IMG/VR virus record: IMGVR_UViG_3300020159_000429
Coordinates: 18,577-82,576 of that record
Source of the DNA: a virus
DNA length: 64,000 nt
Direction: 5' to 3' (one strand)
The notes beneath the pieces are model-generated. The model saw only the letters and a program-made list of their open reading frames with translations. It was not told the origin of the DNA and searched no databases. Shown one piece after another: positions 4,920 to 61,992 of this stretch. The translations under genes were made by a program, and so were the position numbers. The number at the start of each line of letters is the position of its first letter. Positions within the stretch are counted from its first letter, which is position 1.

Positions 4920-7900
4920 ATGACAACTACTACTAGACAAAATAATTTAATTCTTGCCGAAGATTGGACAAGAATTTACCAGACCTTTAAAAATGCTGAC
5001 TTTAAATCCTACGATTTTGAGAATCTTCGTAGGGTTATGGTTGCTTACATTAAAGAAAACTATCCCGAAGATTTCAATGATTTTATTGAAAGTTCTGAAT
5101 TTATTGCGTTAATTGACCTAATAGCATTCCTTGGTCAAAGCCTAGCATTCCGCATTGATTTAAACAGTCGCGAAAACTTTATTGAACTAGCTGACAGAAA
5201 AGAAAGTGTTCTGCGATTAGCTAGAATGCTGGCCTACAATGCCAAGCGAAATCAATCAGCATCAGGGTTATTAAAGTTTGAAAGCGTAAGCACTACAGAG
5301 GATTTGATCGATAGTAACGGTACTAATCTAGCAAGACAATCAATCGTATGGAACGATCCTTCAAACTCGAATTGGTATGAGCAATTTATACAAGTACTAA
5401 ACGCCGCCATGATTGAAAACGTTGAGTTTGGCAAAGACCAAGCTAACAAAACTATAGATGGTATTAGAACTGAACAGTATAGATTAAATTCTTTTTCTAC
5501 AGCAGTTCCTGTGTTTTCATTTGGTAAAATTGCTGGTGGAAGAAATACTACATTTGAAATATTAAGCACGGGGATTGGTTCATCAGAATTTATTTTTGAA
5601 GAAGCTCCGCTACCGGGTCGTCAGGTAGGGTTTGTTTACAGACAAGACGGAAAAGGAACTGCGAGTATCAACACTGGTTTCTTTATGATCTTTAAACAAG
5701 GATCACTAGAGAGTGCTGAATTTTCTATAACAGCACCGACACCTAATGAAATAGTGTCAATTGCTACTCAAAATATCAATGATTCAGATGTATGGTTATA
5801 TTCGTTAGACGCATCGAGGACGTTGACTAATTATTGGACCCCAGTCGGATCTGTGGTTGGTAACAACATAGTTTACAATAGTTTAAACAGTAATCAACGA
5901 AATGTATATTCTATCATAACTCAATCTGATGATGCAATTGATCTACAATTTTCAGATGGCGTTTACGGAAATTTACCGCAAGGCGATTTTAGGGTTTATT
6001 ACCGAGTAAGCAACGGTTTCTCGTATGTAATTCCGCCCAACGACATGAAGAACATCTCAGTTAGTATACCTTATATCAATGCTAGGGGTATTCAACACAC
6101 CCTAACTATTTCGTTAGGACTAGAATACACTGTTGAAAACAGTGCTCCGTCGGAGACTATTGATTCTATTAGATCAAAAGCTCCTGCGATATATTACACA
6201 CAAAATAGAATGATCACCGGAGAGGATTATAACCTTGCTCCTTTATCATCATCTCAAGAAGTATTAAAAGTCAAAGCTATAAACAGAACCAGTAGTGGTA
6301 TTAGCAGAAGCTTTGACATTATCGATGCTTCTGGAAAATATTCTAAAATTAATGTTTTTGCTGATGACGGCCTTGTCTATAGAAAAGACGAAGAACGAAA
6401 TTATTCGTTCAAATATTCTAACAAAAATGTAGTATTAAATTTTATTAGAAATACCATACAGCCAGCATTATCGTCATTTCAAACTTATAATTTTTATCTA
6501 ACAAATTTTGATAAAATTTTTACAGCTGACGTCAATGTTAAATGGATTAAATCGACCACCGAAGAAAACGCATCAACCGGTTTCTTTGGTAATGTGTTTG
6601 ACAGTTTTCCTATTAAAGTAGGCACATATACAACAAGTAATCTGCGTTATATTGAAATTGGTGGATTGGTTAAATTTATTCCTCCGAGTGCTAGTCAAGC
6701 ATTTTATAGAGGCGAATTAGTTAACTATGATCCTGCTAACAAAGACCATAAAAAATTCGTATGGACCAAGATAGTAAAATTAGTAGGGGACGGTACTAAC
6801 GCAGGTAAAGGTAATTTAAATTCCGGCAAAGGTCCTATTACATTTAGTGAAGTGATTCCAACAGGGTCGTTACCTTCACAAGTTGTATCTAAATTTGCGT
6901 CAACTATTCCAACCGATATTGAAAATGAAATTTTAAATCTTACTTTTAGTAATGAAACATTTGGCCTACGTTACGATGTATTAGCAGGCGAGTGGACAGT
7001 TATTAGTTCAACAAACGTTGATCTAGAAAACAATTTTAATCTAGGTCAAGCAGGCGATTCGACAAATACCAACGTTGATAGCTCTTGGTTAGTTGCGTTT
7101 GTTTACGACGGTGACGAATATAGAGTACGAGTTCGCGGCACAGAATACATTTTTTCAAGCGTATCTCAAAATAGATTCTATTTTGATCGAGGAGAAAAAG
7201 TTTACGACAGTCGTGCTAGAACATTAATAAAAGATCAAATAAAAGTGTTAGGTATCAATGAGTCACCGCAGAGTTCCATTGCCACAAATATAGAACTTGC
7301 TGACGCAATACTAGCACTAAGGAATTCAAATCCGTTGTTTACAGCATCTGATGTTTTAAGTATTGTTGATAGACAACAAACATTAAAAGATAATATTTCT
7401 TTTGAAATTGCCGATTCGGTAAGATATCAAGACGGGTATAAGAGTGCTGATTCTATCAAACTTTCTTTTTACGACAGTGACGATGACGGAGTCATTGACA
7501 ATCCAGATTCTTTTGATGAGATAGTAGGCATCGACCTATTAACAAAATATATTTTCTTCCAACAGGTACAGGATGAAAATGGATTTGATGTGTTTAACTA
7601 TGTTCCAAATATTAACAATCGTTTCGTAATCAAAGACAAAGAGATTAATGTTAATGTCAACGAATACGATCACAATCAGTTGATTTATTTTTATGACCAA
7701 GGCGAAAATATCATCAAGCGTGTTGACCTAATTACTAGATCATTTATACTAGAGCCAAGCTACGTTGCTTACATAGGCAGAGATAATTTAAAGTTTCAGT
7801 ACATTCACAATGCTAGCGAAAGTCGAAGAATTGATCCTAGCGTTAGCAATATTATTGATGTATATCTATTGACAAGGTCCTACGATACTTCTTACAGACG

Positions 7901-8429
7901 ATGGTTAACTGGCGGCCTAGCAACTAAACCAGAAATACCAACATCAGAATCGTTAAACGCACAATTTGGAGCCAACCTTACATCTATTAAATCTATCAGC
8001 GATGAAATAGTATACCACCCTGTAAAATATTTTTCTTTGTTTGGTGATAAGGCCACACCAGACTTTCAGGCAGTATTTAAAGTAGTAAAAAATCCAAATC
8101 GAGTATTAAATGACAACGACCTAAAGGTGAGAATTATCAACAGCATTAATGAATTTTTCTCTGTAGAGAATTGGGACTTTGGTGATAGATTTTATACCGG
8201 TGAATTGATTACGTATATCATATCACAAAATTCTCCAGATATTAGTAATATGGTATTGGTTCCAAAACAGGAAAATCAAGCCTACGGAAGTTTGGTTGAA
8301 ATTAGAGCACAGCCAGACGAAATTTTAGTAAGTGCTGCTACTGTTGATAACATTGAGATTTTATATAATATCACAGCAACAGAACTAAATCTATTGAACA
8401 GCCAAGTTGTAACTAGGACGGGTCAGTAA
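4920..8429 (+). CDS. 6: Baseplate wedge subunit gp6-like
   Basis: A 1169-aa protein. The first 120 residues carry the gp6/gpJ signature: a helical start, ending FIESSEFIALIDLIAFLGQS, then FRIDLNSRENFI and an RLARMLAY phrase. gp6 forms the inner baseplate ring with gp7 and gp25. It is almost twice the length of T4 gp6 (660 aa), with extra beta-rich modules between about residues 550 and 950, as is typical of marine relatives. The stop codon overlaps the ATG of the giant gene downstream, which supports assembly as neighbours in the wedge. Confidence 0.82.
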   Translation: MTTTTRQNNLILAEDWTRIYQTFKNADFKSYDFENLRRVMVAYIKENYPEDFNDFIESSEFIALIDLIAFLGQSLAFRIDLNSRENFIELADRKESVLRLARMLAYNAKRNQSASGLLKFESVSTTEDLIDSNGTNLARQSIVWNDPSNSNWYEQFIQVLNAAMIENVEFGKDQANKTIDGIRTEQYRLNSFSTAVPVFSFGKIAGGRNTTFEILSTGIGSSEFIFEEAPLPGRQVGFVYRQDGKGTASINTGFFMIFKQGSLESAEFSITAPTPNEIVSIATQNINDSDVWLYSLDASRTLTNYWTPVGSVVGNNIVYNSLNSNQRNVYSIITQSDDAIDLQFSDGVYGNLPQGDFRVYYRVSNGFSYVIPPNDMKNISVSIPYINARGIQHTLTISLGLEYTVENSAPSETIDSIRSKAPAIYYTQNRMITGEDYNLAPLSSSQEVLKVKAINRTSSGISRSFDIIDASGKYSKINVFADDGLVYRKDEERNYSFKYSNKNVVLNFIRNTIQPALSSFQTYNFYLTNFDKIFTADVNVKWIKSTTEENASTGFFGNVFDSFPIKVGTYTTSNLRYIEIGGLVKFIPPSASQAFYRGELVNYDPANKDHKKFVWTKIVKLVGDGTNAGKGNLNSGKGPITFSEVIPTGSLPSQVVSKFASTIPTDIENEILNLTFSNETFGLRYDVLAGEWTVISSTNVDLENNFNLGQAGDSTNTNVDSSWLVAFVYDGDEYRVRVRGTEYIFSSVSQNRFYFDRGEKVYDSRARTLIKDQIKVLGINESPQSSIATNIELADAILALRNSNPLFTASDVLSIVDRQQTLKDNISFEIADSVRYQDGYKSADSIKLSFYDSDDDGVIDNPDSFDEIVGIDLLTKYIFFQQVQDENGFDVFNYVPNINNRFVIKDKEINVNVNEYDHNQLIYFYDQGENIIKRVDLITRSFILEPSYVAYIGRDNLKFQYIHNASESRRIDPSVSNIIDVYLLTRSYDTSYRRWLTGGLATKPEIPTSESLNAQFGANLTSIKSISDEIVYHPVKYFSLFGDKATPDFQAVFKVVKNPNRVLNDNDLKVRIINSINEFFSVENWDFGDRFYTGELITYIISQNSPDISNMVLVPKQENQAYGSLVEIRAQPDEILVSAATVDNIEILYNITATELNLLNSQVVTRTGQ

Positions 8430-45847: not shown

Positions 45848-46272
45848 GAAACTTCGCTTTTGCCTTTTGCTATCGGTACTACATTAATATATCCCGCCGG
45901 TCTGTTAGTATCGAGACCTTCGTCAGTTAACATCTGTCGAACAATGTCTCTAAACCAGCGATCAACGATCTCTTCTTCTGGATCACCTTCAAATCCAAAA
46001 CCCTCTTGTCTTAATTTTAACACAAAAAGTTCATTCCAGTCAAGTTCAAAGAAACCGTTACGAATATTTTCTTTATTCACATGAGTTTCAAGTACACTAA
46101 CCCACGGCTCACCTTTGGCGGTGGCCCGTTCTTTTGGAGTCATCTTAGCCTGTGCTTCTTCTTCTTGGGCTTTAACTGTTTCGGCTACTGCTTTGTCTCT
46201 GGCTATTTGTAATGCTTCTTTTTCGGCTTGCAGTTTGTCAATACCAAATAACTTTTTAATAATTTGTTTCAT
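45844..46272 (-). CDS. Conserved phage hypothetical protein
   Basis: A 142-aa protein using the ATG at 46272, which overlaps the queE stop (TAATG) and has GGGGA as ribosome site; a GTG at 46284 is less likely. The N-terminal 50 residues are a charged, Ala/Glu-rich helix. The C-terminal half (GEPWVSVLETHVNKENIRNG, ELDWNELFVLKLRQEGFGFE) is mixed and well conserved in style with unknown marine phage proteins. No catalytic motif. It sits between queE and the exonuclease. Confidence 0.57.
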   Translation of the reverse strand: MKQIIKKLFGIDKLQAEKEALQIARDKAVAETVKAQEEEAQAKMTPKERATAKGEPWVSVLETHVNKENIRNGFFELDWNELFVLKLRQEGFGFEGDPEEEIVDRWFRDIVRQMLTDEGLDTNRPAGYINVVPIAKGKSEVS

Positions 46273-47135
46273 TAAGTTCCCCACTCATTTTTAAATAACG
46301 GCACTTGTAAACGATCGCTGTAGCGCAAGCCATTCTTCATAGCTAAGTCTGCTACTGTGCGATTGTTCAATGCGTAAACACTTTCAACACCGCCTACTGG
46401 CATTAGATAAACATGGCCTTTGAATCCTGCCGCACGATAAGCAGCAATGGCACATTCTGCGTCAGCAAAGTCTTGTTCTGTAGCAATTACAAATTTCAAA
46501 TACGCTGTACCAAAATTTTCGTATTCACAAACTACTTCTGGAAGAATAGCTTCTTCCCACTTCTCGCCTGAACATGGAAGTTTAGCACTCACACTAAATG
46601 TAACTTCTCTAGCAAACTCCATATTAGGCATTTGCCATTCGATTAAAAATTCTTTAAAATCTTCTGTTAGTTTTTGAGTACCATTTGTTTCAAATGTAAT
46701 CTCTTTCAAGCCTGCCATTTTAGGATGACGCAACAAATCTGGATAAGCACGTTGCCAACCAAGCAATGGCTCGCCACCTGTAATTACAAGGTGTTCGTCT
46801 TTCCACTCTCTATGCGGAATAATTTCCGTGATTCTGTCGGCGATTGCGTCTGAAGTGAGCATTGGACTAAGATCTTTAAAAGCAGGATGCCAGCTAGCGT
46901 AACTATCACAGCCCGTAGAAACCAAAGGAAGTTCTTCATATTTTTGAAACGATTCAATGTTTGCGTGTGTATATGCGATATCGTCAGCTTCTTTGCTTAG
47001 TTCGCCTCTAGGCATACCAAAGCCAGCACATTTAAAGTTACAACCAAATGTACGTAGAAACACAGAAGGAACACCCATGTAGCGACCTTCACCTTGTATG
47101 CTGTAAAACAGCTCTGCAATTTTAATTTTGCTCAT
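46272..47135 (-). CDS. queE: 7-carboxy-7-deazaguanine synthase (QueE), radical SAM
   Basis: A 287-aa protein starting IKIAELFYSIQGEGRYMGVP, the QueE signature. The Fe-S motif reads C32-x3-C36-x2-F39; the usual third Cys is replaced and C76 in STGCDSY may take its place, an arrangement I associate with phage QueE. GGEP occurs in LVITGGEPLLGW. QueE converts 6-carboxytetrahydropterin to 7-carboxy-7-deazaguanine (CDG). With folE, the QueD-like gene and the DpdA-like gene it makes a partial 7-deazaguanine pathway. It overlaps the mazG-like gene by 14 bp. Confidence 0.9.
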   Translation of the reverse strand: MSKIKIAELFYSIQGEGRYMGVPSVFLRTFGCNFKCAGFGMPRGELSKEADDIAYTHANIESFQKYEELPLVSTGCDSYASWHPAFKDLSPMLTSDAIADRITEIIPHREWKDEHLVITGGEPLLGWQRAYPDLLRHPKMAGLKEITFETNGTQKLTEDFKEFLIEWQMPNMEFAREVTFSVSAKLPCSGEKWEEAILPEVVCEYENFGTAYLKFVIATEQDFADAECAIAAYRAAGFKGHVYLMPVGGVESVYALNNRTVADLAMKNGLRYSDRLQVPLFKNEWGT

Positions 47136-51189: not shown

Positions 51190-51401
51190 ACACGATCCTT
51201 TAACCATTCGTCTACTTTGGCTTCTGCTTCTTCTTGGGTGACAGCATAAGCATAAATCCAATAACATTCATCCTTGCCTTTAATATCAAATGGCACAGGC
51301 CCGTTAAACAATATACCGTCTTCTAACATACGTTTAACTTCAAACTTTTGTAAATTTTTAGCACGATTAATTAAATCGTTAGCCATGTCTACTGAATTCA
51401 T
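51186..51401 (-). CDS. Conserved small hypothetical protein
   Basis: A 71-aa protein: helix, short beta segment (GILFNGPVPFDIKGKDECYW), and a C-terminal Glu-rich helix (AVTQEEAEAKVDEWLKDRV). It sits in a 4-bp overlap chain between folE and the cupin gene. Function unknown; similar small proteins are frequent in marine T4-like phages. Confidence 0.55.
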   Translation of the reverse strand: MNSVDMANDLINRAKNLQKFEVKRMLEDGILFNGPVPFDIKGKDECYWIYAYAVTQEEAEAKVDEWLKDRV

Positions 51402-52162
51402 CTTGGGGCAAACTCCTGTTGTAATTTGATATTATCAAAAAACTCTTTCTTAGTATTAGGGTCAGTTTTAAATGCTCCTGTTAATACTGTAGTCTGAGTT
51501 AATGAACTGTGTGCCATAATGCCGCGATTCTCACAGCATCCGTGCGTGGCCTGTATGTACACTGCTACATTTTTGGAGTCTGTTGCTTTGCTGATTTCCC
51601 TAGCAATGTCATTACAAAGTTCCTCCTGGAGAGTACCTCGACGGGCACACCACTGAGCGATCCTTGTATACTTGCTAAGTCCGATGAGTTTCTGAGCCGC
51701 AATAATACCAATATAAGCAACGCCAACAACGGGTTGGTGATGATGGCTACACATACTGCGAAGCTCGCTACGAACAACCAGCATACCTTCGTAACGGCCC
51801 TCTGTATCGTTTGGAAATGCTGTTGCGTCTGGTGCTGATTCATAACGTCCTGCCATTATTTCATTAAAGTACATCTTGGCAAGTCTACGTGCTGTGCCTT
51901 GACTATTAGGATCATTTTCACGATCAATAAGCAAACTATCTAGCACTTGTTCAAACGCCGGAGTTGCTTCGTTGATTAGTTTTTCTATGTCACCATCGTG
52001 TAGATAATCACTAATGTTATCGCCAGCCCAGAACCGCTTGCCTTCACGTTTCATTTTAAAGCGAAGATGATCGCCTAGGTATGCTTCTTTATAATCTTTG
52101 TTATCATCGCCTTGTTGTTCTGCTCCGGTAATGATATTATTGTATGTTCTTGATTCTGTCAA
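51398..52162 (-). CDS. folE: GTP cyclohydrolase I (FolE)
   Basis: A 254-aa protein with the GTP cyclohydrolase I zinc site: C138 and H140/H141 in RSMCSHHHQPVVGVAYIG, and C209/C210 in THGCCENRG. KLIGLSKYTRIAQWCARR binds the substrate. It makes dihydroneopterin triphosphate from GTP, the first step to folate and to 7-deazaguanines. The start is taken as TTG at 52162 after GGAG (8 nt); no ATG fits the conserved N-terminus. It probably feeds the QueD-like and QueE enzymes, but supplying folate for ThyX is an alternative. Confidence 0.93.
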   Translation of the reverse strand: MTESRTYNNIITGAEQQGDDNKDYKEAYLGDHLRFKMKREGKRFWAGDNISDYLHDGDIEKLINEATPAFEQVLDSLLIDRENDPNSQGTARRLAKMYFNEIMAGRYESAPDATAFPNDTEGRYEGMLVVRSELRSMCSHHHQPVVGVAYIGIIAAQKLIGLSKYTRIAQWCARRGTLQEELCNDIAREISKATDSKNVAVYIQATHGCCENRGIMAHSSLTQTTVLTGAFKTDPNTKKEFFDNIKLQQEFAPR

Positions 52163-52203: not shown

Positions 52204-53307
52204 TTATTTTAACATCTTTAATAGATTATCGCAACTGAAAAAGTTATCTGTTAAGATATCTACCTGTTTATTTAGGCTAGGTATACGAGTTCTGTAATTT
52301 TCCATATGTTCTATAATTGTTTTACAGATGTCTGGACGATATACAGTATAGGCATCAAACGATTCAGTCCATTTGCTAGGATATTTAAATATGTCTAAAG
52401 CCATTTCGCTATAGCTTAGTCTATCAGGCACCATTGGGATAGCATCTACAATAGCACCTTCATACCAACTGATACCGAGCGTTTCTTGTAGATTAGCACT
52501 GAACACCATTTTAGCTTCGCCTAGTAAATTATGATATTCGTTTTTAGTCAGTTGTTGATCTTGACAAACAACAAATTCGTACTGTGGCAGATGTTCTTTT
52601 AAGTCACGGAATATTTCAACCTGCTTTTCTGGAGCAATACGATGTGGGAACAAAATAAGATCACGCTTGGGCATGTTCTTATACATGAGCAAAGTATTAG
52701 TCATATACTCCATAGGCCACCCTGTACGCACAAACTTAGGATACTCGCCTGAAAGTATTTCTTTAAGTTCTTCTTCGTACCACGGATTTTCTACAGTATG
52801 CCCGTTGTTCAGTAGTTCTCTATTAAACATTTCTATATGGAACTCTGTAGCAAAGTAGTTGTGATCAAAAGCAGAAAAGAATGATTTTTCTGCGTTACGA
52901 ACCCAAGGTTTGTTACCAACTAGTCGACCTAAGAAGTCTTGAGGATCATAACTGCCGGCATGCCATAGACCGTGTGTTGTTACTGGAATGCCCAGCAACT
53001 CACTCATGTACTTTAGATTTATAATGCCCGGATGCCAAGCGTCAGTAAAAATAAAGTGGTCGCCAGGATGAACGGATCCATCACAAAACAACCGACCCAT
53101 CTGCTCAACCTGGCTAGCCTTGTATATATTGGTGCCACCAAAATTAAGAAAAGCACCAGGAGTAGTGGCTGTAGGAATATCCGTAGGGCCAGAGATAATT
53201 TGAACATCGTGTCCTGCCTTTCGTAAGAGATTAGGTACATGAGTCTTCCACTGACCCGTGTACCTTGTTTCTACTGCTTCTAGATCAACGAGAAAAATTC
53301 TGCTCAT
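52204..53307 (-). CDS. GT-B-type glycosyltransferase
   Basis: A 367-aa protein from ATG 53307 (MSRIFLVDLEAVETRYTGQW); a GTG 27 bp upstream is less likely. Two Rossmann-like halves are seen. The N-terminal half contains RKAGHDVQIISGP and THGLWHAGSYDP; the C-terminal half contains LILFPHRIAPEKQVEIF, EFVVCQDQQL and ETLGISWYEGAIVDAIPMVP. This last phrase is the E-x7-E nucleotide-sugar region of GT4-like enzymes. It lies between folE and the QueD-like gene, where a DNA- or base-modifying role is possible; a polysaccharide or protein acceptor is the alternative. It overlaps the upstream gene by 23 bp. Confidence 0.72.
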   Translation of the reverse strand: MSRIFLVDLEAVETRYTGQWKTHVPNLLRKAGHDVQIISGPTDIPTATTPGAFLNFGGTNIYKASQVEQMGRLFCDGSVHPGDHFIFTDAWHPGIINLKYMSELLGIPVTTHGLWHAGSYDPQDFLGRLVGNKPWVRNAEKSFFSAFDHNYFATEFHIEMFNRELLNNGHTVENPWYEEELKEILSGEYPKFVRTGWPMEYMTNTLLMYKNMPKRDLILFPHRIAPEKQVEIFRDLKEHLPQYEFVVCQDQQLTKNEYHNLLGEAKMVFSANLQETLGISWYEGAIVDAIPMVPDRLSYSEMALDIFKYPSKWTESFDAYTVYRPDICKTIIEHMENYRTRIPSLNKQVDILTDNFFSCDNLLKMLK

Positions 53308-53503
53308 TGCGTCGATGTTGTGGTTTGTATCCACGATTGTTGTCCCAACGTCGTTGTGGGCGTTGGCTGTTTAAGAATGAACGATAATTTTCATTTTCCT
53401 TATCGTACAAGTGGGTGGGATTAAATTCTCGCAGCTCAATGCGGCAAAAATCTAAGTAACGGTCGAGATCGTCGAAAATTTTCTCAACTTGCTGTTTCAT
53501 CAT
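53285..53503 (-). CDS. Conserved small hypothetical protein, basic C-terminus
   Basis: A 72-aa protein taken from ATG 53503 (or the adjacent ATG at 53500), both preceded by GGAACACC. The start region is helical (QQVEKIFDDLDRYLDFCRIE) and the last 35 residues are Arg/Asn-rich (SQRPQRRWDNNRGYKPQHRR), a possible nucleic-acid-binding tail. A longer frame reaches into the queD-like gene and is not used. Function unknown. Confidence 0.5.
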   Translation of the reverse strand: MMKQQVEKIFDDLDRYLDFCRIELREFNPTHLYDKENENYRSFLNSQRPQRRWDNNRGYKPQHRRNEQNFSR

Positions 53504-56497: not shown

Positions 56498-58108
56498 TCA
56501 TTCAGCTACAAGACTATTTAGGTCATCATCGTCGGGATTTGAAAAATCAATTTCGTTTGACTTTTTGCCATCTTCAAAATCAAATAAATTACCAAATGTA
56601 TTTGCTGCAGGACCACCCTGTAGTCGAGCACCTTCTAATGATTTCAAGAACTGCCCAGCAGTTTCGATCATGTCAAATGCTTCTGTTTTATTTTTGGTAT
56701 TAAACAGTTCTTCAACAAAAGCAGCAAAATATAGAATTCTATTAGGAACCCAATCGCTAAATTCAATTTCTTTCTTGCCTTCAACGCTTTTTGTTCTCCA
56801 GTCTGGTTTGAATCTAGCACACTCAATGTCCATTAACTGTTGAGCACGTTGTACCGCAACAATATGACATTCAACATTATGGCCCATCATTAAAGCATAA
56901 GCAAAACTATCCCACGATGTCTTGTTTGGAATCTTGCCTAGTTTATTAAGTTTAGGCACAACATTATAATGTGTTGGATCTAAGTGATTAAATTTAACAT
57001 CACCTAGTTCTTCATTAGTCTTACGAACACCATAGTCGTAATATGCAATATCGCCCATAACAAGTCTAGAACCAAACTCGCTTTCAAACGGAAACGGAAT
57101 ATCTGACTTAGCAAGTGCTTTATTGTCCGGAGCCTTGTCCATGATCACTGACCAACGCTTGTTAGTGTGAACAGCATTGGTATACACAAGTCCGTGGGCA
57201 GTAGCAATAAACGGACTAGCACAGTCAAAGCTGATTGTAATTTCTGGATTGATATGTTTGCGAATCTGTCTTTGGATCAACGTTAAGTAGCATGACCAAT
57301 CTAACTGAGCAGTTCCTAAAAAGTGCATCCAGTTCTTGCCTTCTAACAATCCGTCTTCACGTAAAGTCATTAGACGCTTTAGTGTAATATCCATCTTACA
57401 CATGTTAGCACCACCCATGGCCCATCCTTCTGCTTCCTTGCCGGCATATTTGCCTTTAGGATCGCTAAACTCTTTGACACCATCGTACCACTTCTCGGCT
57501 GTGTCCCAATCTGAACCTTGTAACACATTAAGCCATTTAGTAGCACCTAAGCGATTCATTAGGAAATAGTCGTTGTTATAACGAGTCTTATCCAAACAAT
57601 CTTCAAATGTTTTTAATCCAGTCTTTGGACTATGAATGTGATCACATGCCCAAGTCGGAACGTCTAACATCATTGACCAGTCAGCAGTTAACTCTAACCA
57701 TTCAAGAATCTTTTGACGAGTTTTAGTAGCTTCTGGTCCTTCAAAGTTTAACCAATCAAACTTAAGGACACCCTTACCAATCTGATAACCACCAGAGTCA
57801 CCTAAGATCATTGTCTTTGAACGATCACGATCTTGAATCATCGATTCTTGTGTAAGACTTTTTTGTAGATCAAGTTGTGCGTGACCTGCCGAATACAAAC
57901 CATACTTATAATAGAAGTAGCCTTGTTCGGGATTTAAAAAGTTCATACCTTCAATACCACGATCAAATCCCGCAGGAATACGATCGTCTGGAACAAACTT
58001 TTCTAAACGTTGTTTAGCAATGTATGTGCTGTAGAAACTACTGATCGCAGGCAAATAGACTGCGTAGTCTTTTTGTAATGGTGTTAGGTCAACTGGTTGT
58101 TTGTTCAT
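56498..58108 (-). CDS. dpdA: DpdA-like 7-deazaguanine transglycosylase (TGT superfamily)
   Basis: A 536-aa protein with the TIM-barrel signature of queuine/archaeosine transglycosylases: DSGGYQ at 104-109 (GDSGGYQIGKG), D149 in MMLDVP, VLQG at 195-198, GWAMGGANM at 228-236, HFLGTA near 262, and the nucleophile-type Asp in SFDCASPF (D295). The CxCxxC zinc motif of tRNA enzymes is not visible. It is longer than bacterial Tgt (about 375 aa). Phage members of this group (DpdA) exchange guanine in DNA for a 7-deazaguanine. NLFDFE at 507-512 matches the LFDFE end of the phage polymerase, suggesting clamp binding. The tRNA alternative cannot be excluded. Confidence 0.75.
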   Translation of the reverse strand: MNKQPVDLTPLQKDYAVYLPAISSFYSTYIAKQRLEKFVPDDRIPAGFDRGIEGMNFLNPEQGYFYYKYGLYSAGHAQLDLQKSLTQESMIQDRDRSKTMILGDSGGYQIGKGVLKFDWLNFEGPEATKTRQKILEWLELTADWSMMLDVPTWACDHIHSPKTGLKTFEDCLDKTRYNNDYFLMNRLGATKWLNVLQGSDWDTAEKWYDGVKEFSDPKGKYAGKEAEGWAMGGANMCKMDITLKRLMTLREDGLLEGKNWMHFLGTAQLDWSCYLTLIQRQIRKHINPEITISFDCASPFIATAHGLVYTNAVHTNKRWSVIMDKAPDNKALAKSDIPFPFESEFGSRLVMGDIAYYDYGVRKTNEELGDVKFNHLDPTHYNVVPKLNKLGKIPNKTSWDSFAYALMMGHNVECHIVAVQRAQQLMDIECARFKPDWRTKSVEGKKEIEFSDWVPNRILYFAAFVEELFNTKNKTEAFDMIETAGQFLKSLEGARLQGGPAANTFGNLFDFEDGKKSNEIDFSNPDDDDLNSLVAE

Positions 58109-58457
58109 AATCTCTCGCTAAATGTGCTGTCAGTTCTAATCTTGTTTTTGCCTGTTCTAAATGATCTAGTGCTATACGAACCGCTTCGTTGCTAGAAGCT
58201 AGTTTGTACCATTTATCTTCTTCATCACGCTTCTTACGTGCCCACTGTACTATGTCTAATATATCTTGATCTAAACTTACAGTAGCATAACTGGTAGATA
58301 ATTGTTGCCAACTGCTACCGTTAAACACTTCTATCTCTGTACCGTTAACACGCATCATTCCAGTCATTGGATTATTAGAGTTTGGGCCAACATACGGTAG
58401 GGCGGTGTTGCCACCACCAACCGTAATGCCTGTGGTGCCCATTAGTCCTTTAATCAT
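58089..58457 (-). CDS. Conserved phage hypothetical protein
   Basis: A 122-aa protein. The start (MIKGLMGTTGITVGGGNTAL, then a beta segment with VNGTEIEVFNGSSWQQL) is like a short fibre-type beta domain; the C-terminal half is helical (ILDIVQWARKKRDEEDKWYK, LDHLEQAKTRLELTAHLA). This combination is common in marine T4-like phages. It lies between the DpdA-like gene (20-bp overlap) and the clamp gene. The function is unknown; the WARKKRDEE helix could contact nucleic acid or a partner. Confidence 0.58.
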   Translation of the reverse strand: MIKGLMGTTGITVGGGNTALPYVGPNSNNPMTGMMRVNGTEIEVFNGSSWQQLSTSYATVSLDQDILDIVQWARKKRDEEDKWYKLASSNEAVRIALDHLEQAKTRLELTAHLARDYEQTTS

Positions 58458-58459
58458 AT

Positions 58460-59197
58460 TTAGGCAGCTTGTGCTGGAATGATATATTTGTAAGTAGCAA
58501 GTCCGCTGTCGAGTGTAATCTGAATAGCACCTTCGTTTGACAACGACATCTTGGTGTTGTTGACATCGGCAATCTTAAGGATACTTAAGATTGGCATTAC
58601 AGGCCATGTCCACCCGCGATCTAGTTTTCCACTAACACCCATAGCAAACACAAACTCTCCGCCGTGTGTTGAAGCATCGCCAAAGATAAACTTTAAATTG
58701 CCGTTATCAGTTTTTGCTAAGAATGTTGGGTGTTCGCTGTGAGCACCTGCTTGGAAGTTAAAACGCTGAACAGAAGCTACACTTGGTTCAATCTCTACGT
58801 CCCACTTAACACCACGGAACTTAACAGTCTTCATCTTTTCGTTGATGATTTCTGTGTTCATAAAACGATAGTCGTTTTTAAAGTCGCCGTCTTTGTTTTC
58901 AAAGTGAATACCTACTGGCAGTGTTTCACCATTGCGTTCTGCTTTAGTAATACTGATCTTAGCATCTTCTTTGTATTCAGCACCGTCTAGCAAGTATTTC
59001 AACTTGTTTAACTGCGGCATACCAAACACACCAATCATGTCTGCGTAAGGAGCAGCAGCTTCAGCCTCCATAATAACTGAGCGGTCGTCTGCCATTGAGT
59101 TAATAGTTGTACCTTGTTCTGTGCCTGTGACTTTAACAGTTGTAAGGAAGCCTAAGTTTTGCGTATGCGATACGATATCTTGTAAAATGTCTTTCAT
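58460..59197 (-). CDS. 45: Sliding clamp (gp45/PCNA-like)
   Basis: A 245-aa protein with the two-domain clamp pattern of T4 gp45 (228 aa). Visible landmarks are the N-terminal DIVSHTQNLGFLTTVKVTGT, a central MNTEIINEKMKTVKFRGVKW strand/loop, and IEPSVASVQRFNFQAGA followed by GNLKFIFGDASTHGGEFVFA. It forms a ring that tethers the polymerase and, in T4, activates late transcription. A CTAAATA box lies about 30 bp upstream. Just downstream lie the DpdA-like gene, which has a probable clamp-binding peptide, and just upstream lies the polymerase gene. Confidence 0.88.
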   Translation of the reverse strand: MKDILQDIVSHTQNLGFLTTVKVTGTEQGTTINSMADDRSVIMEAEAAAPYADMIGVFGMPQLNKLKYLLDGAEYKEDAKISITKAERNGETLPVGIHFENKDGDFKNDYRFMNTEIINEKMKTVKFRGVKWDVEIEPSVASVQRFNFQAGAHSEHPTFLAKTDNGNLKFIFGDASTHGGEFVFAMGVSGKLDRGWTWPVMPILSILKIADVNNTKMSLSNEGAIQITLDSGLATYKYIIPAQAA

Positions 59198-59258: not shown

Positions 59259-61925
59259 TTACTCAAAATCAAATAATTTGTTGAAGTTGTTGTCACTTCG
59301 AGTTGAACCAATGTCCCATTCTAGGACGCCAATTAAGTTTTCTAGCTTTTCATCAATGACTGCGTTTTCCATCTCAGCATCGTTAAAAGGTAAATCCTTA
59401 AACCATTGTGGTAGTCTAAGTTCATCTACAGGATATGCCACTGAGGTATAGCCCATTGGATTGTCTTTGACCTTACAGACAATAACTTTCGCACCATCTG
59501 TAACAGCCATTGAGTACTTGTCATCGTTCATACGCTTGAGAGTGTTCCAGTTCAAACTAGCACGAACGTGTCCAGGCATGTTGGTCTTGCCTGCTTTCTT
59601 TTCTTTAGATTGATATTCAGTGATATTGTTAGCACGTTTGGGACTACCTTTCTCCCAACCAGGACGAGTTTTAAACTCTGTACGAAAGTCGGTGATATAC
59701 TCAAGGATTTTTTCCTCAGGTACACCGTTCAAGACTTTTTCTAACACCTGACTTAAGAAGTCTTGAATAACAACAGGAGTATCCGAACGCTTCAAATCTA
59801 ATCCCATAGCTTTGATTTTACCCGGTTTGCCATCAACATCAGTGCGTTTGCCTTCTTTATCGTAATAAAGGATAGCATAACGCTTTTTAGTCATGAACAA
59901 GCCTTTACTAGCAACAAACTCTCGGCCAGCTCGAATAACTTCACCGCGTGACTTTGGACAATGAAACTTATCCTGCATCATTTTAGGAAAGCTGGCATTA
60001 ACTTCATCAGCAATTTGATCATAAAGCTGTACTACAGTTTCTTTAGTCCACGGAAGTTGTCCTGACTCAATCTCTTTCTTTAGTACAGGATACGCAGAGA
60101 AGTAACACGAGTCTGTATCACCGTAGATAACAGCTTTACCTCTATAGTCATATTCGCCTGTGGCAATTTCGTTAATTTTACTAGCCATGTGTTTAACAAT
60201 TTGACGACCACTTAGCGTAGTTGACTGACCAATCCGATTGTCAAAGAATCTACAACCAGGATTAAGAATAGCACCATATAGACTGTTTAGGTTAATCTTC
60301 TTAACTAGCTGACGTTTATCCCAGTATTCTTCTTCAATCTTGTTGCCGCTGGCAATACATTCTTTAAGTTTGGCCTGCATTTCTTTACGTTCAGCATACC
60401 AACGTTTTAGTAGACCAGGAATGATACCTTCTTTCTCATAGGTAAAGATTGTGCCGTTGGCACTGATCATCCACGGCTGATTACTATCAAAGATTAAATC
60501 ATTAATTTGAGCACCGGATAATGTATCACTACCGCCGTTTTCCCAGTCAATGATGATTTCTTTAGAAACGTTACGTTCCATTACTAGTTCGTATTCTAAA
60601 CTGCCAAATACGCCTTCCCAGGCAGCGGCAAACGACTTGCCCTTGCCCATTTCTTGATCAATATAATTTTTAGTATATTCGGGACGTAGTTGTCCCACGA
60701 TAGTTTCGGGTCCCATGTTTAGGGCACGAATTGCTGACGGATACAGGGAGTTAATGTCCACAGAGCCAATCCATTCGTGGATGCCTTTCTTTGGATAAGC
60801 AACATACGCACCTGCTGCTGGTTCACTGCCTGGTTCACGTTTAATTCGATTAGGAACAACAAATCCTCTGCGATGTGCTTCGTTGATAATAGCTTGCTCT
60901 GTTACAGCAACAGCACCCATAGTAGTTGCCAACAATACTGTGTTTTCATGAGCAATTTTATTAGCTAGATCTAAAAATTTAAGTTTTTTATCTAATTCGT
61001 CTAACAGAGTTGTATCGTTCCTGTTATATTCGATAAACTTTTTAAAGTCTTTGTTATATAATTGATCTAATGTGCCTTCGTATTGAGTTTTAGTTTTAGA
61101 TAACTCATATTCGGCAATGGCATCTAAACGATAAGTGTGTCGTTCTTCGTAGGTATACTTTCTATACAGTTCTAAATAGTCTAGGTGTACACGGCCAATG
61201 AGATCATATGTAACAGCAGCCTTGCCGTACTTTTCATATTCTCGCTTTTTCGGGTATTGATTCCATAGGCAGAATCTACGTGTATCATCTTTACTAAGAG
61301 CTTTAGTAATCCTGTTAGTTGTATACGGAATATCAAAGCCTTCTGAGTTCCACCCACTTAAAATATCAGCATCTTGAATAATATTTAAAAAGTTATCCAG
61401 CAACTCAGCTTCTGTTTCAAACAGATATGTGTTGGGAAATTCAGCAACAGCCGCCGTTGCTTCGGCCATTGTCATGGTCTTTGGCGGAACAGCTAGACAG
61501 ATAAGTGTATCTAACCATTGTAGGTGAACAGCAATAGCGGTGATTGGCATAAACGCATCATCTGGTGCCGCATAGCCACGTTCTGGATCAAAGTCTACCT
61601 CAATGTCAAAGAACGCTACGTTTAATTTAGGAGCGTCTTGATTTAGATAGTTGTCTTCTAAACAACGATAGATGGGATTGATATCTGATTCATACAGTTT
61701 AATCCCGCTGTGTATTTTTAGTTCTTTGTGTAAGTCTTTGAGATTCTTACAAGTTATGCGACTAAGAGGATCACCGTTAGTGCTTACATATTTGCCCTTA
61801 GGGTCTTGAAAGTAAAAGATGTGTCGAGCAGGATAATCTTTGTAATGTCTATTACCTTTATCGTCACGTTCGACGATATGAATAGTATCCTGATCGCGTT
61901 CATAGAATGCGTCAACGTAGCTCAT
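59259..61925 (-). CDS. 43: DNA polymerase, family B (gp43-like)
   Basis: An 888-aa protein from ATG 61925 (MSYVDAFYERDQDTIHIVER), with GAGGAAAA at proper spacing; an upstream ATG would add 10 residues. The 3'-5' exonuclease site is FFDIEVDF (D107, E109), motif A is DINSLYPSAIRAL near residue 390, motif B KKINLNSLYGAILN, and motif C YGDTDSCYF near 600. The C-terminus ends FNKLFDFE, the LFD-type peptide by which T4 and RB69 polymerases bind the sliding clamp. It replicates the phage genome and is close in length to T4 gp43 (898 aa). Confidence 0.95.
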   Translation of the reverse strand: MSYVDAFYERDQDTIHIVERDDKGNRHYKDYPARHIFYFQDPKGKYVSTNGDPLSRITCKNLKDLHKELKIHSGIKLYESDINPIYRCLEDNYLNQDAPKLNVAFFDIEVDFDPERGYAAPDDAFMPITAIAVHLQWLDTLICLAVPPKTMTMAEATAAVAEFPNTYLFETEAELLDNFLNIIQDADILSGWNSEGFDIPYTTNRITKALSKDDTRRFCLWNQYPKKREYEKYGKAAVTYDLIGRVHLDYLELYRKYTYEERHTYRLDAIAEYELSKTKTQYEGTLDQLYNKDFKKFIEYNRNDTTLLDELDKKLKFLDLANKIAHENTVLLATTMGAVAVTEQAIINEAHRRGFVVPNRIKREPGSEPAAGAYVAYPKKGIHEWIGSVDINSLYPSAIRALNMGPETIVGQLRPEYTKNYIDQEMGKGKSFAAAWEGVFGSLEYELVMERNVSKEIIIDWENGGSDTLSGAQINDLIFDSNQPWMISANGTIFTYEKEGIIPGLLKRWYAERKEMQAKLKECIASGNKIEEEYWDKRQLVKKINLNSLYGAILNPGCRFFDNRIGQSTTLSGRQIVKHMASKINEIATGEYDYRGKAVIYGDTDSCYFSAYPVLKKEIESGQLPWTKETVVQLYDQIADEVNASFPKMMQDKFHCPKSRGEVIRAGREFVASKGLFMTKKRYAILYYDKEGKRTDVDGKPGKIKAMGLDLKRSDTPVVIQDFLSQVLEKVLNGVPEEKILEYITDFRTEFKTRPGWEKGSPKRANNITEYQSKEKKAGKTNMPGHVRASLNWNTLKRMNDDKYSMAVTDGAKVIVCKVKDNPMGYTSVAYPVDELRLPQWFKDLPFNDAEMENAVIDEKLENLIGVLEWDIGSTRSDNNFNKLFDFE

Positions 61926-61992
61926 ATATTTTCCTCTGCCATTTTCGGCTGGCAAACCAAAATGATCATTTGTGGCTGATCAAACCTTTCTC

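Follow-up and report, generated by a model that had tools for sequence, protein, structure and literature searches.

A candidate sliding-clamp-binding peptide in the C-terminal tail of phage DpdA-like DNA transglycosylases

The locus and its genes

The window analysed here is a stretch of 64,000 nucleotides from the IMG/VR virus record IMGVR_UViG_3300020159_000429, in which the genes for a DNA polymerase, a sliding clamp and a DpdA-like DNA transglycosylase (P0001) are found close together (Table 1). As described in the initial annotation, the clamp is the next-but-one gene upstream of dpdA, with a small ORF in between. This arrangement is widespread, since 148 of 158 relatives have the clamp gene upstream of dpdA at a distance of no more than 700 nt. 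The intervening 122-aa ORF has homologues in 72 related loci and gave no family match in Pfam or PHROGs. The clamp, modelled as a monomer with a pLDDT of 93.4, has PCNA as its top PDB fold matches (E about 1e-11), and its family corresponds to phrog_12062, with one member that has a further match to phrog_223 (DNA polymerase processivity factor). By analogy with T4/RB69, the tail of the polymerase would bind this clamp.

Table 1. Coordinates of the features discussed for the window
Feature	Position	Strand	Remarks
DpdA-like DNA transglycosylase gene (P0001)	56498..58108	(-)	536 aa; TGT-fold body and disordered C-terminal tail
P0001 tail, residues 496-536	56501..56623	(-)	Predicted disordered: pLDDT <50 for 496-527 and 529-536
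Proposed clamp-binding peptide NTFGNLFDFE, P0001 residues 503-512 (NLFDFE = 507-512)	56573..56602	(-)	
122-aa ORF between clamp and dpdA, function not assigned	58089..58457	(-)	20-bp overlap with dpdA start
Sliding clamp gene	58460..59197	(-)	245 aa; PCNA fold of predicted structure
Family B DNA polymerase	59259..61955	(-)	898 aa from TTG; PF00136, PF03104; phrog_262
Polymerase C-terminal peptide DNNFNKLFDFE	59262..59294	(-)	
GTP cyclohydrolase I (FolE)	51398..52162	(-)	First step of 7-deazaguanine synthesis; PF01227, E 4e-41
QueE-like radical SAM enzyme (7-carboxy-7-deazaguanine synthase)	46272..47135	(-)	phrog_2076; TIGR03365 and others below curated cut-offs
Conserved 376-aa gene, function not assigned	52204..53334		Counterpart in 92 related loci

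The base inserted by this phage would be a 7-deazaguanine. FolE is encoded in all nine of the related records, QueD in six of the nine and QueC clearly in one of the nine (a Vibrio phage), and a QueE-like enzyme is found in the window and in PA5oct. Most jumbo-type records with FolE and dpdA (G000-G005, PA5oct, Phosso) have no QueC, the preQ0 synthase, or only a doubtful one, so that either another 7-deazaguanine may be inserted or QueC may come from the host. The 376-aa gene, for which no family match above cut-off was obtained, is possibly part of the modification pathway; in PA5oct its homologue comes directly after dpdA, and in Phosso, where dpdA is unlinked, it is found close to the polymerase-clamp pair.

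In PA5oct, a Hef-like homing endonuclease interrupts the polymerase gene (L081:1605-6831), which has intein-like sequence where it is broken, and similar intein-like ends (EVKPTDIL...) are present in the polymerases of loci L132, L141 and L160.

A transglycosylase family of its own

The AlphaFold model of P0001 (mean pLDDT 88) matches tRNA-guanine transglycosylases (TGT) exclusively among PDB folds (39/39 matches at E<=0.001), the best of them with an E value of 1.6e-6 and a TM score of about 0.5 by target length. In an alignment of 55 diverse homologues, D104 (in GDSGG[FY]Q) and D295 (in [ST][FY]D) are invariant, and we take them to be the TGT catalytic aspartate pair, the former in the DSGG motif and the latter in the nucleophile region. 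Searches with P0001 resulted in no match in Pfam, NCBIfam or PADLOC and no solid match in PHROGs. No sequence similarity to the DpdA of phage 9g was detectable, and the DpdA2 of Vibrio phage nt-1 reached the profile of the P0001 family with an E value of 0.013 in a search of three sequences. Since the described DpdA and DpdA2 families are unmatched by P0001, we call it DpdA-like and treat it as a separate family; on the evidence of its predicted structure, it is a TGT-fold enzyme of the DpdA kind. Its relatives were found by alignment scans, whereas scans with one protein at a time, using the Vibrio or the PA5oct homologue, gave none.

P0001 probably swaps guanine in DNA for a protective modified base. 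It shares with the 9g/CAjan DpdAs and nt-1 DpdA2 the TGT superfamily, a DSG/DSGG motif with a second aspartate, and the linkage to FolE, QueD and QueE, and those enzymes introduce 7-deazaguanines into the DNA of phages (Hutinet et al. 2019, PMC6884629). It has no detectable family-level sequence match to them, however, and nt-1 DpdA2 lacks the tail motif described below.

A tail peptide shared with the polymerase

The initial annotation had pointed out that NLFDFE, located 24 residues before the end of P0001, matches KLFDFE at the end of the polymerase. Both peptides are where they were reported, the polymerase terminating in NNFNKLFDFE, and the likeness spans ten residues (NTFGNLFDFE in P0001), with N-x-F-x-x-L-F-x-F-E in common. 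Judged by sequence comparison, this likeness is more than chance. When the 65 called genes of the window were scored with a matrix built from polymerase C-termini only, the DpdA tail ranked first and the polymerase second, with scores of 25 and 24, respectively, against 7 for the third gene. The same matrix, whose training set contained no PA5oct sequences, placed DpdA first and the polymerase fragment second among the 441 genes of PA5oct, and no shuffled proteome attained either score. In the 331-kb contig of locus L057, the polymerase was first and DpdA second.

Comparison with shuffled tails extended this to 26 gene families from related loci: at p<0.01 the peptide was found in 42/46 polymerases and 27/57 DpdAs (42/57 of the latter at p<0.05), and in one single member of the remaining 24 families taken together. 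By these pattern scans, only the polymerase and DpdA carry the tail peptide. A baseplate wedge-like protein (PA5oct 61207-65166 and its homologues) also has such a peptide near its C-terminus; we infer a chance hit here, given the structural nature of the protein and the lack of LF at this place in its homologue in the window (4920-8429).

Across about 160 relatives of P0001, the NLFDFE-type peptide is the best-conserved part of the tail. Eighty close relatives keep N-x-F-x-x-LF-x-[FIV]-[ED] or one of its variants as a core, and around this core, in these as in about 78 distant relatives, the linker and the acidic end differ both in length and in sequence. F509 is the sole nearly invariant position near the C-terminus in the 55 diverse sequences. 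A match to [FYM]xx[LFI]F is present within the final 75 residues in 42/57 non-redundant DpdAs, compared with 2/285 windows from DpdA bodies and 57/952 tails of other phage proteins. Seventeen of the 57 tails fail the statistical pattern test; some of them have readable variants, such as NKGLFDW (L131) and YHSLFDH (L107), and those of L091 and Phosso are seemingly motif-free. In the alignment of homologues, where the initial annotation had proposed looking for conservation, the peptide is kept down to about 30% identity, so that this check did not refute the proposed link.

The two peptides also resemble each other within single phages. In Vibrio phage 2.275.O, about 30% identical, the polymerase ends in NNTDLFDW and DpdA in NNNDLFGW, both at the very C-terminus. 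The respective endings of polymerase and DpdA are ETMQQFFEF and EEVMNEFFEF in L088, and EALQAFFEF and EEVLNEFFEF in L094. By automated classes, FF-type DpdAs accompany 3/6 FF polymerases as opposed to 2/65 LF polymerases (p=0.003, a value that ignores descent); by eye, five of the six FF polymerases have an FF DpdA, and FF arose three times on the tree. The co-variation of LF and FF types, resting on these three events, is only suggestive.

Could the peptide be a functionless copy of the polymerase gene, acquired by recombination, or a chance likeness? The two genes are close to each other, and their peptide-coding stretches share 22 of 33 bases in the window. Such copying or coincidence would have to account for the conservation of the peptide over deep divergence, and for its being kept in L083, L088, L094, L118 and L155, where it has shifted to the very C-terminus of DpdA. 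In other phages, 11-17 of 24 bases are alike and the codons differ; this partial nucleotide likeness with different codons indicates that recent copying is not the explanation. An unrelated DpdA family, moreover, has its own conserved C-terminal motif, and we regard this alternative as very unlikely.

A second DpdA family with a different tail and a different clamp

That unrelated family is represented by the DpdA of phage 9g, an enzyme experimentally proven to modify DNA (PMC6884629). Phage 9g has dpdA (L220:3007-3960), clamp and polymerase in the same arrangement, and its DpdA has the tail RLQDLFDE. Among the 9g-type DpdAs (phrog_887), the C-terminal L-F is invariant in 15 phages, down to 29% identity. 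In the 14 further phages, with hosts in Escherichia, Pseudomonas, Providencia, Acinetobacter, Klebsiella, Vibrio, Stenotrophomonas, Burkholderia, Microcystis, Rhizobium and Streptococcus, the protein terminates in LF, typically as QELF, and as LFV in BcepGomr; the 25 residues before this end are poorly conserved. From 54 non-redundant IMG/VR relatives, 45 end exactly in LF and three in LY, giving the consensus QELF-COOH, and most of the remainder show QDLF-like residues among their final ten. As a background, 7/952 unrelated phage proteins end in LF, and every ORF found with this ending in the 9g-type loci was dpdA.

The 9g-type family is represented by L220 (9g itself), L228-L241 and L242-L317, and the clamp gene directly follows dpdA in 66 of 78 loci. 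Its products belong to phrog_947 (processivity factor), and the profile matches structurally characterized bacterial beta clamps. The consensus for binding to bacterial beta clamps is QL(S/D)LF (PMC9690074), which QELF-COOH resembles. Since LFxF goes with a PCNA-fold clamp and QELF-COOH with a beta clamp, the class of the tail motif changes with the class of the clamp. The 9g-type family, unrelated to that of P0001 in detectable sequence, would thus represent an independent second case, and provides the strongest new evidence for the clamp link. The paper characterizing the 9g/CAjan-type DpdA (PMC6884629) mentions neither a clamp link nor the LF tail together with clamp adjacency.

These observations also bear on the partner of the peptide. 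As clamp binding by the window's polymerase tail is taken from T4/RB69 only, the common peptide might instead bind another replisome protein, such as the single-strand binding protein, the clamp loader or the helicase. Yet dpdA adjoins the clamp gene in two unrelated DpdA families, with motif classes that follow the clamp classes, which makes a different target improbable.

The 9g-type polymerases, whether annotated as family A or B, have a conserved N-terminal MRxDAxGxFWED (L228, L229, L230, L232, L234, L235, L237-L239 and L241), which may be their own clamp-binding site.

Proposed recruitment by the clamp

Taken together, the DpdA-clamp link is strongly supported by sequence comparison, with the synteny and motif lines being correlative. 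Computation established the peptide and how well it is conserved, the protein folds, the neighbouring genes, and the existence of an independent DpdA family whose motif suits a beta clamp. The best reading, to which we give a probability of roughly 80%, is that DpdA is recruited by the clamp. According to it, NTFGNLFDFE in the disordered tail of P0001 would be a short linear motif for sliding-clamp binding that mimics the C-terminal end of the polymerase from the same phage and fits into the pocket used by that polymerase on the phage-encoded PCNA-fold clamp. The clamp ring would then hold the base-exchange enzyme on newly replicated duplex phage DNA, where guanines would be swapped for 7-deazaguanine soon after synthesis, before restriction enzymes act. 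Physical binding, use of the same pocket, a processive or replication-coupled modification and the identity of the base are what we infer.

The initial annotation had proposed a tether to the replisome that follows the fork. The tether to the clamp is well backed by the comparisons; following the fork and using clamps behind it were not separated by them. The DpdA peptide could bind clamps left on finished DNA, in which case modification would be clamp-dependent but post-replicative rather than coupled to the fork. Clamps do persist behind the fork, where T4 gp33 and gp55 use them in late transcription (PMC7892883, PMC9690074). In addition, the substrate that DpdA needs is duplex DNA with guanine already in place, and the DpdA peptide and the polymerase would be rivals for one and the same site. 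As the sequence evidence is equal for both timings, we consider post-replicative use quite possible, at a little under even odds.

A shared motif, and hence a likely shared site, would also be expected if the tail served to inhibit the polymerase or displace it from the clamp, as a form of regulatory competition instead of recruitment for catalysis. The clamp trimer offers three sites for such an encounter. However, the body that bears the motif has the whole TGT fold and keeps its catalytic aspartates, and motifs of this type usually serve simple recruitment, so that a regulatory role of this sort is very unlikely.

As for recruitment by the clamp, it seems likely to be a general and repeatedly evolved solution, found in at least two DpdA lineages, in which the motif would fit the phage's own clamp, the genes adjoin and modification would be coupled to replication.

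Relation to known clamp clients

The idea of a phage DNA-modifying enzyme bound to the clamp is not new. T4 alpha-glucosyltransferase, the precedent, binds the gp45 clamp (Sommer et al. 2004, as cited in PMC13216743, where a pull-down confirms it). Like P0001, whose contact is deduced from its tail, it is a phage DNA-modifying enzyme placed at a phage clamp with a proposed coupling to replication. Contrary to P0001, it glucosylates hydroxymethylcytosine without base exchange and has a different fold. In T4, expression rather than contact with gp45 sets the share of alpha-glucosyltransferase in glucosylation (2026 paper, PMC13216743); therefore, such clamp contacts can matter little.

Clamp-binding motifs have been described for gp43, gp33, gp55 and ligase of T4/RB69 (PMC7892883) and as the eukaryotic PIP box (PMC9690074). 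Similarly to these, the DpdA motif is short and hydrophobic, lies on a flexible linker close to, or right at, the C-terminus and is common to the polymerase. It differs from them in that the client is a DNA transglycosylase and the consensus is NTFxxLFxF[ED] or QELF-COOH. A clamp also brings a DNA base-modifying enzyme to new DNA in the case of DNMT1 and PCNA, although this is cellular maintenance methylation, neither viral nor involving base exchange.

A DpdA-clamp link was not found in the literature searched, where most subscription papers were outside coverage. Within that same literature, what is new here is the extension to DNA transglycosylases, by two separate solutions, with base exchange as a second chemistry beside the T4 precedent. 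The insertion of 7-deazaguanine by DpdA may thereby be coupled to replication. A clamp tether bears on how and when DpdA reaches phage DNA and on how the wrong DNA escapes modification, and would explain how a slow base-exchange enzyme could modify the genome, as it replicates, early enough to pre-empt restriction. It is directly testable in the E. coli phages 9g and CAjan, and a matching tail motif plus a neighbouring clamp gene provides a search rule for further cases.

DpdAs without the clamp-type tail

A clamp-binding tail common to every DpdA is ruled out, as nt-1 DpdA2 and the actinophage DpdAs do not have this feature. The DpdA2 of Vibrio phage nt-1 has no such tail and its gene lies about 26 kb away, in a phage that has gp45 and proven dPreQ0 (PMC6884629). 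Since this enzyme works without a clamp-type tail, not every DpdA depends on recruitment by the clamp. The actinophage DpdAs (Typha, Hedgerow, Finch) are encoded next to parB instead of a clamp gene and have no LF tail. Their loci (L318, L319, L320) show parB-like neighbour genes and unrelated C-terminal extensions of DpdA, and ParB may be an alternative recruiter. The LFxF peptide is likewise absent from the DpdA of L084, whose gene is not beside a clamp gene, and from that of Phosso, in which about 170 kb separate dpdA from the polymerase-clamp pair and the polymerase ends in TTFNDLFTF. The actinophage, L084 and Phosso cases, with dpdA away from a clamp gene and no clamp-type motif, act as controls in favour of the clamp link.

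The DpdA of Edwardsiella phage ZHS ends in KQSLW, with the clamp gene 1.4 kb downstream. Distant relatives on bacterial and archaeal MAG contigs (L326-L333, L336), which are probably viral, mostly have a clamp-like gene within about 1.5 kb, and their tails vary, with short hydrophobic ends such as GLGLI, GFGL, KRGLI and RKLFI.
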